This document shows, piece after piece, positions 47,859 through 51,032 of a stretch of 64,000 nt of DNA (its first letter is position 1; each line of letters begins with the position of its first letter). The translations under genes were made by a program, and so were the position numbers. Source of the stretch: Nocardia brasiliensis IFM 10847 (lineage in GTDB: Bacteria; Actinomycetota; Actinomycetes; Mycobacteriales; Mycobacteriaceae). The DNA lies in contig NZ_BAUA01000118.1 of assembly GCF_000710915.1 (NCBI RefSeq), positions 1-64,000 on the forward strand, written 5' to 3'. The notes under the pieces are model-generated. The model did no database searches. It was not told where the DNA came from and saw nothing but the letters and a program-made list of their open reading frames with translations.

Positions 47859-49088
47859 ATGGGCGCGCTGGCGGGCACTTTGGTGACGGTCGCCGAGGAT
47901 CTGGACTCGGTGACGACGGTGGGGCGTGAGGACGACCCCGCCGCGGCGGGCTCGACCCGCGCGGCGGTCGACGCGGTGTGGGAGTCCGTGCGCGACTGGT
48001 ACCGGATGGGCACCACCCCGGCCATCCAGCTCTGCCTGCGGCGCGACGGCAAGATCGTGCTGAACCGCGCCATCGGGCACGGCTGGGGGAACGCGCCGGG
48101 CGACGCGCCCGACGCGGTGCAGGTGCTCGCCACGCCGGACAGCCCGTTCTGCGGGTTCTCGACCGCGAAGGGGGTCGCGGCCGCGGTGATGTGCATGCTC
48201 GCCGAACAGGGCGCGTTCGGCCTGGACGAGCCGGTATGCGCCTACATTCCGGAGTTCGCGGCCAACGGCAAGGATCGGATCACCATCGGTGACGTGCTGT
48301 CGCATTCGGCGGGCGTGCCGTTCATCACCCCGCCCTACAAGGGTTTTCAGCTCATCGTCGACGAAGATCTGGCGGTGCGCGCGCTGACCGATCTGGTGCC
48401 CAGTTGGCCGACCGGCCGCTTCCGGATCTATCACGCGATGACCGGCGGGCTCATCCAGCGGTTGCTCGTGCAGCGGGCGACCGGCAAACGGATGCGCGAG
48501 CACCTGGCCGAGCAGGTGCTGGACCCGCTCGGGTTCCGGTGGACCAATTTCGGCGTCGACGCCGCCGAGGTCGACCAGGTCGTGCCGAGCGTGCAGACCG
48601 GTCCCGGACCTTCGCGGGTGTCGAAGTTCCTGGCGCGCAAGGCCCTCGGCGGCGGCATGGGCAAAGCGGTCTCCGATGCGGGCACGCGGGCGCTGCTCAC
48701 CGCGGAGCTGCCCTCCGGCAACCTGGTCACCACGGCGGCCGAGCTGTCGCGCTTCTACGAAATCCTCGCGCGCGGCGGCGAATTGGACGGGATCCGGATC
48801 ATGCGGCCCGAGACCGTGCGCGCCGCGGTACAACCGGCGAAATGGCTGCCCGGTCTCGCCGGCCGCGTCAGCCGGGCCGGGTACGAACTGGGCGGTCGCA
48901 GATCGAAGTTCGGCCGCGACACCCGCGCGCACTTCGGCCGCAGCGGCCTCACCACCCAGTACGGCTGGGCCGACCCGGCACGTGGGCTCGCCGGGGCCGT
49001 GCTCACCAGCGGCAAGGCGACCACCGACACCGACCGTCCGTGGCGGCTGGTCGCCCAGATCTCCGACACCTTCCCGCCGGTGCGCTGA
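47859..49088 (+). CDS. Class C beta-lactamase-fold serine hydrolase (esterase/LACTB type)
   Basis: 409 aa. The start is set at the ATG at 47859, where family similarity begins. Active-site Ser-Lys in FSTAKGVAAA (SxxK), Tyr in the FRIYHAMTGG block, and ending with GLTTQYGW close to the third motif. The neighbouring LSHSAGVPF is the typical loop after the nucleophile. No signal peptide, so cytoplasmic; members in actinobacteria are usually carboxylesterases rather than beta-lactamases. Divergent from the ESX satellite operon. Confidence 0.88.
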   Translation: MGALAGTLVTVAEDLDSVTTVGREDDPAAAGSTRAAVDAVWESVRDWYRMGTTPAIQLCLRRDGKIVLNRAIGHGWGNAPGDAPDAVQVLATPDSPFCGFSTAKGVAAAVMCMLAEQGAFGLDEPVCAYIPEFAANGKDRITIGDVLSHSAGVPFITPPYKGFQLIVDEDLAVRALTDLVPSWPTGRFRIYHAMTGGLIQRLLVQRATGKRMREHLAEQVLDPLGFRWTNFGVDAAEVDQVVPSVQTGPGPSRVSKFLARKALGGGMGKAVSDAGTRALLTAELPSGNLVTTAAELSRFYEILARGGELDGIRIMRPETVRAAVQPAKWLPGLAGRVSRAGYELGGRRSKFGRDTRAHFGRSGLTTQYGWADPARGLAGAVLTSGKATTDTDRPWRLVAQISDTFPPVR

Positions 49089-49240
49089 GGCCGGTCCCGC
49101 AGCGCTCACCGAATGAGAGCAAAGGGATATAGGCTGAGGCAACGGCGTGAAAGTAACTGGTATGTATCGAATTCGAGCGTTCGGCCGATAGGGGAGCGGG
49201 GGTGCGGTATGCGCGCCTGTGCTCGAAATGGAGGTCGAAC

Positions 49241-49840
49241 ATGGTGAATCCGGGAAGAAGTAGCCGCAAGTTCCGGCGACTGGTCCTGCTGACAGTTGTC
49301 ATCGGAGCCTCGGCCCTCGCGCCGGTGGCGGCCTTCGCGGCCCCGGACACGACCGCGCCCGCTGCGCCCACCACCGCCGCGCCGGTCACCCCGGCCCCGC
49401 CGGTGACACCCCCGCCGACCAACTCGCCCGCACCGACGACCCCGCCGCCCACCACGGCGCCCAAGCCGCCGGCCGATCCGTACGGTCCCGACGGCTACGA
49501 CTCCTCCGGTTACGACCGGTTCGGGTATGACCGATTCGGTTACGACCGCGACGGATTCGACCGCTCCGGGCTGGACCGCTGGGGTAACGACCGGTCCGGC
49601 TACGGCCGCGACGGTTTCAACGACGAGGGCTTCGACCGTTCCGGCTTCGACCGTTCAGGTTATGACCGGTGGGGTTACGACCGATCCGGCTACAACCACA
49701 ACGGATTCGACCGGTGGGGTTATGACCGCTGGGGATACACCGCACAGGGCTGCGCCCGTTCCGGGGAGGACAAGCCGGATGCCGATCACGCCGCCTGCGA
49801 AGCGCGACGGCAGCGTCCGCCCACCGGCAGTGCTTCCTGA
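49241..49840 (+). CDS. Secreted protein with 17 pentapeptide (G-Y/F-D-R-x) repeats
   Basis: 199 aa. The ATG at 49241 is chosen because GGAGG lies 8 bp upstream. A Sec signal peptide (basic SSRKFRR, hydrophobic core, cleavage around AFA-APD) is followed by a Thr/Pro/Ala-rich, cell-wall-spanning-type linker of about 50 residues. Then come 17 tandem five-residue units with consensus G-(Y/F)-D-R-(F/S/W/D), and a short tail with two Cys (GCARSGED, ACEARR). Aromatic, Asp and Arg residues repeat every five positions, suggesting a regular coil or solenoid exposed on the cell surface. I know no function for it. It lies between two serine hydrolase genes. Confidence 0.85.
   Translation: MVNPGRSSRKFRRLVLLTVVIGASALAPVAAFAAPDTTAPAAPTTAAPVTPAPPVTPPPTNSPAPTTPPPTTAPKPPADPYGPDGYDSSGYDRFGYDRFGYDRDGFDRSGLDRWGNDRSGYGRDGFNDEGFDRSGFDRSGYDRWGYDRSGYNHNGFDRWGYDRWGYTAQGCARSGEDKPDADHAACEARRQRPPTGSAS
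49493..49747 (+). repeat. 17 x 15-bp coding repeat
   Basis: Each 15-bp unit encodes G-aromatic-D-R-x. Units at the protein level run GYDSS, GYDRF twice, GYDRD, GFDRS, GLDRW, GNDRS and so on to GYTAQ. Codons vary between units (GGT/GGC, TAC/TAT), so the array is old enough to have diverged while the protein pattern was kept. Confidence 0.9.
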
Positions 49841-49898
49841 GTGTCGTTGACCTGGCTGCCCTTTCGCAGTCGGGGCCGGGGTAGGTGATCGTCCGGGT

Positions 49899-51032
49899 TC
49901 AGCCCGCGCAGAAGGCCGCGTCGAGCACGCTGTTCATCGCCGCCTGATACATCACGGTGGTGAGCGGATCGGGCAGCAGGTTCATGCTGAGCGTGACGGC
50001 GCGGGTCGGCGTGGCGGCGTTGACGACCAAGAAGCCGTTCATCGCGCCGCCGTGGCTCCAGATCTCCATCCCGCAGGCGTTGATCCGGCGGAACAGCCCG
50101 AGACCGAAATCGGCGTCGCGGAGCGGGTCGCCGGAGGGCACGGTGCGCTGCATCTGCGCCAGCTGCGCGGGCGGCAACAGTTCGCCGGACAGCAGGGCCA
50201 TGAAGAACCGGCCGAGGTCGGCGCCGGTGGCGACCATCGCGCCGTCGGCCAGTCCCCAGCCCGGATCGATATCGGTGATGTCCACCAGCGCGCCGTCGAA
50301 GGCGTGGTATCCGCGCGGATGCGGCGCGCGAATCACGTGCTCCAGCGGGAACAATGGCCAGTAGGTGTCGCGCAGGCCGAGCGGGATGATGATCCGCCGG
50401 GTGACCTCGACCCCCACCGGTACCCCCATGACGCGTTCGATCAACTCGCCCGCCAGCAGGAAATCCGTATTGGAATAGCCGGAACTGGTGCGCGGGGCGA
50501 AGACCGCGGGCTGATCGAGACCGAGCCGGATCAGCTCCGCGGCCGGTCGCGGACGCTGCAATCGGTCGACCGAGGTCAGATCCAGGTAGGCCAGGTAGTC
50601 GGGTATCCCACTGGTGTGCTGCAACAGATCTCGCACGGTGATCTGGTGCCCGTCGCCGCCGGGACCGTTGACCACTCCCGGCAGGTACTGCTCGATCGGC
50701 GCGTCCAGCTCGACCCTGCCCTCTGCGGCGAGCTGCAACACCACCGTCGCCACGAAGGTCTTGGTATTGCTGGCGATCCGCACCTGCGCGTTGTCCGGGA
50801 ACGGCGCGCCGGTGGCCAGATCGCCTACGCCGCTGTCGATCTGCGCGTTCGCGTCGGCGCCGCGCACCACCAGCTGGGCGCCGGGCACACCGATGGACCG
50901 GATCAGCAGATCGAGGTCGGCCTGCAATCCCACCGGGGCGGAGCCGGGTTCGGCGACCGCGACCCCCGCCCCGGCGAACGTCGACATCGTCACCGCCGCA
51001 ACTACGGCGGCCGTCAGCCAGGAATACCGCAC
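49899..51032 (-). CDS. Secreted class C beta-lactamase/D-Ala-D-Ala carboxypeptidase-like serine hydrolase
   Basis: 377 aa from a GTG preceded by GGAG. Signal peptide with a hydrophobic core (WLTAAVVAAVTMSTFAGAGV) and cleavage near VAVA-EPG. Catalytic motifs SNTK (SxxK), YSN in SSGYSNTDFLL, and HGG in WSHGGAMNGF, all complete. The LLQHTSGIPDYL loop follows. Typical of exported peptidases and esterases that act on peptidoglycan or on small esters; beta-lactam hydrolysis cannot be excluded. Convergent with the pentapeptide-repeat gene. Confidence 0.9.
   Translation of the reverse strand: MRYSWLTAAVVAAVTMSTFAGAGVAVAEPGSAPVGLQADLDLLIRSIGVPGAQLVVRGADANAQIDSGVGDLATGAPFPDNAQVRIASNTKTFVATVVLQLAAEGRVELDAPIEQYLPGVVNGPGGDGHQITVRDLLQHTSGIPDYLAYLDLTSVDRLQRPRPAAELIRLGLDQPAVFAPRTSSGYSNTDFLLAGELIERVMGVPVGVEVTRRIIIPLGLRDTYWPLFPLEHVIRAPHPRGYHAFDGALVDITDIDPGWGLADGAMVATGADLGRFFMALLSGELLPPAQLAQMQRTVPSGDPLRDADFGLGLFRRINACGMEIWSHGGAMNGFLVVNAATPTRAVTLSMNLLPDPLTTVMYQAAMNSVLDAAFCAG

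Follow-up and report, generated by a model that had tools for sequence, protein, structure and literature searches.

The open reading frame at positions 49241-49840 (+) of the window, i.e., of the 64,000-nucleotide stretch of Nocardia brasiliensis IFM 10847 that was analysed, encodes a member of a real and conserved Nocardia protein family that is apparently exported and, as far as the searches reach, undescribed. The protein of 199 residues (the stop codon follows; coordinates, strand and frame were rechecked) carries all the marks of the family: an apparent signal peptide, an array with a period of five residues and the consensus G-[Y/F]-D-R-x, two cysteines spaced as C-x14-C, and a [TS]GS tail. 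With a probability of about 45%, it is an exported stand-alone structural protein of the envelope or surface that acts as a spacer or rod. A previous sequence-only reading had described a secreted repeat protein that could form a surface fibre, a binding lattice or a cell-wall spacer; its observation is confirmed, and its interpretation is partly supported.

The array occupies residues 85-169 (49493-49747, +) and comprises 17 units, namely GYDSS GYDRF GYDRF GYDRD GFDRS GLDRW GNDRS GYGRD GFNDE, followed by GFDRS GFDRS GYDRW GYDRS GYNHN GFDRW GYDRW GYTAQ. From residue 85 onward, 19 consecutive glycines stand in register, one every five residues, as against maxima of 7 and 8 in 20,000 shuffles each of the whole protein and of the array region. 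The coordinates, the 17 in-register units and the strict period of the sequence-only reading were thus borne out. The glycine register runs through the 17 units and then through GCARS and GEDKP, and therefore the cysteine module continues the array. Glycine occupies the first position in all 17 units, tyrosine or phenylalanine the second in 15, aspartate the third in 13 and arginine the fourth in 13. The claim that an aromatic residue, Asp and Arg occur in every unit was too strong, given that the strict form G[YF]DRx is found in only 10 of the 17.

The DNA differs in each of the 17 units, and Nei-Gojobori dN/dS values of the array (own script) are 0.099, 0.098, 0.025 and 0.231 against four orthologues (L084, L085, L086 and L100, respectively). 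The array is under purifying selection, with dN/dS of about 0.03-0.23, in agreement with the earlier claim that selection acts on the protein pattern. When the array codons of 63 family members were pooled and compared with 339 neighbouring open reading frames called by a simple script, a lean toward GAC (0.89 vs 0.69), TCC (0.59 vs 0.28), GGT (0.34 vs 0.19) and AAC (0.91 vs 0.75) was apparent, which is compatible with strong expression without being proof of it.

The start codon ATG at 49241 is favoured over an upstream GTG at 49202 by the spacing to a GGAGGT motif and by the starts of the homologues. Residues 1-33 (49241-49339, +) were read by eye as a signal peptide with typical n, h and c regions, RKFRR - LVLLTVVIGASALAPV - AFA/A (the stroke marks the predicted cut), and on this reading the protein is apparently exported and the peptide would be cleaved. 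A31 and A33 are invariant in 42 homologues, and AxA occurs between residues 19 and 50 in 57 of the 63 members. Next comes a Thr/Pro-rich linker of 47 residues (34-80; 49340-49480, +), 64% of which are T or P, so that the order of signal peptide and linker given previously stands. In 33 of the 63 members the linker has 30 residues or more, half or more of them T, P or S; the other members have a short linker, some with a Cys pair of their own.

The C-terminal module (residues 170-199; 49748-49837, +; alignments A1 and A3) contains C171 and C186, both invariant in the 42 aligned homologues, and a helix predicted by AF2 at residues 183-191. The two cysteines already remarked upon after the array are indeed conserved: C-x14-C is present in 61 of the 63 members and absent from L114 and L120. 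The invariant columns of the 42 aligned members are A31, A33, G145, G155, G170, C171, C186 and R190. The module ends in the conserved tail PPTGSAS (49817-49837, +): [TS]GS[ASG] occurs within the last ten residues of 58 of the 63 members, and the other five end in DRTGLL. A genome-wide C-terminal sorting tail was rejected, as ends of the TGSA[GS]-stop type gave fewer matches in the window's genome than in a reversed control (40 vs 51). Among 30 of these 40 matches inspected by eye, the array gene was the only open reading frame with a signal peptide and such an end. Of 9,025 open frames of at least 60 residues in 982,649 bases (the loci and the window), 79 end in such a tail; 51 of them are family members and none of the remaining 28 was taken for one, and the tail therefore looks family-specific.

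It should be noted how the 63 members were obtained. They were drawn from 74 array rows, with near-identical orthologues counted separately; six open reading frames of more than 420 residues, L057, and L104 (a true member with a mis-set start) were left out, as were a frame-shifted-looking L076 frame, L113 and L115, which have no end of the GSA, GSS or TGLL type. Starts were chosen by rule and are probably too far upstream in L007, L073, L081, L071 and L077. No homologue devoid of the period appeared, in a member list that was itself chosen by the five-residue period. Not all marks are universal, as the counts for C-x14-C (61 of 63), the tail (58 of 63) and the long T/P linker (33 of 63) illustrate.

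The family was sought at several taxonomic depths. A whole-protein search matched 28 of 60 relatives, 20 within the genus and 8 outside; those of the 8 outside matches (L020-L022, L024-L028) and of the same-genus match L023 that were read proved to be other-frame, antisense or Pro/Ala-rich repeats and were rejected. Among 150 Nocardia genomes, a typed consensus of the C-terminal module matched 48 and alignment A3 matched 50, the window's genome included; the remaining 100 gave no match, and the protein is therefore not a general part of the envelope. Relatives in other mycolata, which the sequence-only reading had proposed to look for, were not found for the module beyond two marginal matches outside the genus: 301 genomes of the taxonomic family yielded 14 matches, 13 of them congeneric and one from an assembly with 7% contamination (E 3e-4), and 397 genomes of the order yielded eight, seven in the same genus and one at E 9e-4. 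By these searches, the family defined by the module appears confined to Nocardia and does not convincingly extend beyond it. In a further scan, 12 of the 17 loci among the matches listed belong to Nocardia (N. brasiliensis, N. donostiensis, N. brevicatena, N. vermiculata and others), N. brasiliensis being 92% identical in its best segment, and some of these 12 loci have no Cys module. In open-licence papers, nothing bearing on the GYDRx repeat or the family was found, and eight-letter forms of the repeat returned zero papers.

Arrays of this type also occur in larger proteins. Two Nocardia open frames of 1717 and 1761 residues on the minus strand (L118 in G002 and L119 in G035) each contain several G[YF]Dxx arrays, set apart by acidic and Pro/Gly-rich stretches, and are possibly large secreted effectors, and a multi-pass membrane protein (L017, minus strand, 654-residue open frame) carries an array of about 16 G[YF]Dxx units on its hydrophilic C-terminal tail.

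The number of units, counted by the authors' own rule, ranges from 6 to 21 over the 63 members, and the copy-number variation that had been suggested as a check is found between species as well as between paralogues. At the syntenic locus, the window and ten further loci have 17, 17, 17, 17, 17, 11, 7, 7, 7, 12 and 12 units, i.e., 17 in the window protein, L084, L085, L086 and L100, and 7, 11 or 12 in six more distant genomes. Such whole-unit length changes at a syntenic locus are as expected of a spacer. One copy, in Nocardia amamiensis BJ06-0157 (L168), has an in-frame stop within the array, and the copy of N. amamiensis NBRC 102102 (L166) is open.

A serine-hydrolase-like gene on the same strand precedes the window gene, and a second serine-hydrolase-like gene lies downstream in convergent orientation (names from sequence reading). 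An orthologue of the first neighbour lies upstream of the array gene in 10 of 60 fetched loci; the second is found downstream in 8 of these 10, on the other side in L098, and was not found in L063, a short contig. In another subgroup, an SDR-like gene adjoins the array gene in 18 loci and an htpG-like gene lies upstream in 16, and further subgroups sit in other surroundings. No operon partner stands out, because the flanking genes vary between subgroups.

Upstream of the gene lies a promoter-like pair (49163-49191, +), TGTATC at 49163-49168 and CGATAG at 49186-49191. TGTA...CGAT is shared by 40 of the 63 members, in which TGTA lies at -68 to -78 relative to the start codon, and GTA is invariant in 29 aligned leaders. 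The 23 members without the pair include many short-linker paralogues, besides a contig edge, starts that are probably mis-set and a few changed first elements. The ribosome-binding region was read as a Shine-Dalgarno-like GGAGGT at 49230-49235 (+), of which GGAG is invariant in the 29 leaders of alignment A4.

A hairpin is predicted at 49194-49224 (+), just after the presumed transcription start, with 5 + 7 base pairs, a 1x1 internal loop and a loop of 5 nucleotides. Many family members have a predicted hairpin in this interval, between the promoter-like pair and GGAG. The 47-nucleotide leader of the window has a minimum free energy of -23.3 kcal/mol (z -3.94); among 44 distinct leaders with CGAT in range, z is below -1 in 29 and below -2 in 21 (median -1.85), and two are positive beyond 0.9. 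Covariation was counted in 16 leaders of relatives that were chosen for their shape and do not include the window. In these, 95.2% of the 186 cells of the 12-bp stem are paired, compared with 91.3% in shuffles; both partners are changed in three pairs, in 13 cells, and pairing falls to 18-45% when the partner is slid. Neither the covariation score nor the 13 doubly changed cells were attained in any of 500 shuffles, whereas 55 of the 500 had at least as many doubly changed pairs and 488 at least as many pair types. The alignment of 29 leaders yields only a weak consensus of seven pairs (-2.22 kcal/mol). As an alternative to a role of the RNA, the hairpin sequence may be a palindromic operator.

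Rfam had no match in 49000-49950 up to E 1. A model of the leader (R1) gave 13 matches at E 1.5e-8 or better in 11 genomes, all just before family genes, and five further weak matches (E 0.14-0.58) elsewhere in these genomes. A regulon sharing the leader was accordingly rejected for the 11 genomes, although the scan is a weak test of absence elsewhere, because the model already included 7 of the 13 leaders and the others are closely related.

A conserved promoter-like element and leader in front of a gene for a small, apparently secreted, stand-alone protein, with zero to two module matches per genome among the matches listed, might be expected of a surface protein with a developmental role in aerial hyphae or in mycelium that fragments, comparable to the rodlins and chaplins of Streptomyces. 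This is rather improbable: chaplin and rodlin families gave no profile match (Pfam, NCBIfam), two thirds of the 150 genus genomes (100) are without a module match, and a FliA/WhiG-type reading of the promoter found no stretch of the genome above the 189.6-bit cut-off of the sigma family, with nine at 98-115 bits.

Profile searches assigned the protein to no known family. Pfam scanned to E 10 returned only Chorion_1 (E 8), which upholds the earlier statement that the array is not the A(D/N)LxX solenoid. Matches in NCBIfam (MXAN_5187, E 0.0032, 17.3 bits against a cut-off of 200; Rcas_1661, E 0.039) and PHROGs (the Zot-like phrog_197, E 0.0029, and three weaker ones) were not taken as real, the best of them falling on the signal peptide and linker. 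A PDB sequence search gave four weak rows (E 0.059-0.18), of which three fall on the linker and the fourth on the array, and phage records contained no match. An Enterococcus plasmid match (H8) was dropped, as by its coordinates it is out of frame with the annotated gene.

The spacer or rod gains from the apparent signal sequence and in-register array in all 63 collected members and from C-x14-C in 61 of them, from an AF2 model built on 10 sequences, in which the blocks of residues 81-170 have a predicted pLDDT of 92-95, and from a DotG-like protein (L163) with a similar array before its TrbI domain. The AF2 model contains isolated bridge residues only, no strand of three or more residues and a single helix (183-191); its pTM is low (0.46), and AF2 may be over-confident on repeats. 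A 329-residue array protein of Caryophanon modelled without an alignment reached a mean pLDDT of only 45.9. Foldseek returned nothing at E 10 or better against 350,542 PDB chains, a zero that may reflect masking of the periodic sequence, and one meaningless row (E 7.7) against BFVD. Composition alone predicts disorder, with a FoldIndex-type score of -0.338 for residues 81-169. The composition-based disorder, the low pTM, the poor Caryophanon model and the missing Foldseek chain count against the rod. The main rival is an intrinsically disordered array that would act as an adhesive or elastic self-associating polymer, with aromatic and Arg stickers and Gly/Asp/Ser spacers, in a surface film or matrix. 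It can be likened to resilin-type and FUS-type low-complexity sequences, and the prevalence of G, D, R, Y, S and F, a net charge near neutral and the FoldIndex-type score agree with it. Nevertheless, a register of 19 glycines with mostly fixed D and R exceeds what stickers and spacers need, and a predicted pLDDT above 90 in the array speaks for local order; we regard the polymer as unlikely.

Similar arrays are not restricted to Nocardia, at least five other loci with G[YF][DN]xx arrays being present among the matches listed, from Anaeroplasma, Syntrophomonas, a Deinococcales bacterium, a gammaproteobacterium and Caryophanon. The protein of the Deinococcales bacterium has a signal-like N-terminus by eye. 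An Anaeroplasma array protein has a UvrD-helicase domain and looks cytosolic, and therefore an array as such does not imply a role at the surface. A Syntrophomonas array has 51 glycines in register and a zinc ribbon. Seven Gordonia plasmid records matched the array, and two that were opened contain an in-frame array with hydrophobic segments near TraM-recognition and peptidoglycan-cleaving genes. Three of four viral-contig loci have such arrays, and the fourth (L204) failed the filter; on one IMG/VR viral contig (L203), three consecutive paralogues resemble one another in the N-terminal domain and carry a G[YF]DxD array at the C-terminus. Among 396 Actinomycetota genomes, six matched the generic array at E 1e-10, four of them outside the genus, and only that of G1004 is a true G[YF]D array (L206, minus strand), in a protein that also has a membrane segment and a C-terminal domain that looks HEPN-like (by eye). 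The matches L207, L209 and L211 were set aside as arrays of PGHDR, of SGTDN and of a frame opposite PPGEN. L207 (G907, minus strand) has a signal-like sequence and, by eye, a lamin-tail-like domain; its G-[HQN]-D-R-P array may be an analogue of the GYDRx array that arose by convergence.

The arrays of the Gordonia plasmids, Syntrophomonas, Caryophanon, the Deinococcales bacterium, Anaeroplasma and the viral contigs share the unit type of Nocardia, but their flanking domains are different and no C-x14-C module was seen in them; convergence is as likely as common descent. That G-[Y/F]-D-x-x arrays all represent one undescribed five-residue rod, neither helical nor sheet, which arose or spread in several phyla and viruses and serves as a length-adjustable spacer for surface proteins of Nocardia as well as for proteins of conjugation or type IVB secretion, is an unlikely generalization.

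Several of the arrays from other phyla and viruses are often acidic or Asn at position 5 and DxDG-like. With the regular rows of aromatics and charges, this would suit an array that binds a ligand, be it a cell-wall glycan, a heparin-like sugar or calcium, to which each unit would present an aromatic residue and an Asp/Arg pair. Within the family, position 5 is instead taken by F, W or S in 57% of the 748 units and by an acidic residue in about 17%, and the net charge is -0.23 per unit and thus near neutral. For these reasons calcium binding looks less likely, and as no binding-repeat family gave a profile match, ligand binding in general is quite improbable.

Taken from the computed parts, their conservation, the selection and the shared leader, the role that we infer for the spacer or rod would be as follows. 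The signal peptide would direct export through the membrane. The Thr/Pro segment, which some members have in shortened form or lack, would be a flexible and possibly glycosylated stalk. The array would form a rod of repeated, locally ordered structure, in which Asp-Arg and aromatic contacts recurring every five residues hold it together; its length varies by whole units between species. The C-terminal module, with a putative C171-C186 disulfide and the PxTGSx tail, may cap the rod or tie it to a partner. The gene's own promoter-like element, the 5' hairpin and the strong ribosome site suggest independent and probably strong expression.

Nocardia has a testable protein family with its own conserved leader that is undescribed as far as the searches reach, and its genus-limited C-terminal module could mark subgroups of Nocardia. 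Distant bacteria also have the short G[YF]Dxx repeat, in proteins of the envelope and of secretion. If the array is a regular rod, it would be a new and very simple building block; if it is disordered, it would be a natural sticker-and-spacer polymer that a bacterium makes for export.

Among known repeat proteins, RHS/YD repeats were not among the profile matches listed (Pfam, NCBIfam; the HMMER filters drop most matches above about E 0.1), and the acidic DxDxDG spacing of calcium-binding DxDG repeats of the TSP3 and dockerin kind is not seen in the family. The A(D/N)LxX pentapeptide repeats (PF00805 class) have the five-residue period in common with the window array, but are built around a central Leu instead of Gly and an aromatic residue and gave no profile match. 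Sortase substrates of the LPXTG type share an apparent signal peptide, a Thr/Pro segment, repeats and a tail of the [RK]Px[TS]G type (45 of the 63 members). A literal LPxTG is present in only 3 of the 63, and the motif is followed by neither a hydrophobic segment nor a basic tail, the protein ending a few residues later; the window protein ends in RPPTGSAS, which does not fit LPXTG anchoring. A TM-like stretch beyond residue 50 was found in three members (L073, L081 and L007), where it is read as a signal peptide behind a start set too far upstream.

A close architectural parallel is offered by DotG/IcmE and other VirB10/TrbI proteins, in which a long repeat lies between the membrane segment and the core domain of an envelope protein. 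The window protein differs from them in having no TrbI match (Pfam) and no membrane anchor; the DotG repeat in the PDB is of the type GF[ST]AxxLxxA, and the window protein itself (P0001) gave no DotG match. The array of Caryophanon matches the DotG repeat zone in the PDB at E 5.9e-11, which is weak evidence of kinship because repeat was matched against repeat. Tomography is reported to place DotG's own repeats in the stalk (PMC7511231). A gammaproteobacterial DotG/IcmE-like protein (L163:7785-9956; TrbI E 1.4e-12, DotG E 4e-45) carries a G[YF]Dxx array that is flanked by a hydrophobic segment on the N-terminal side (by eye) and by the TrbI domain at residues 506-680, its repeat zone consisting of G[YF]DRD-type units with Cys-containing breaks.
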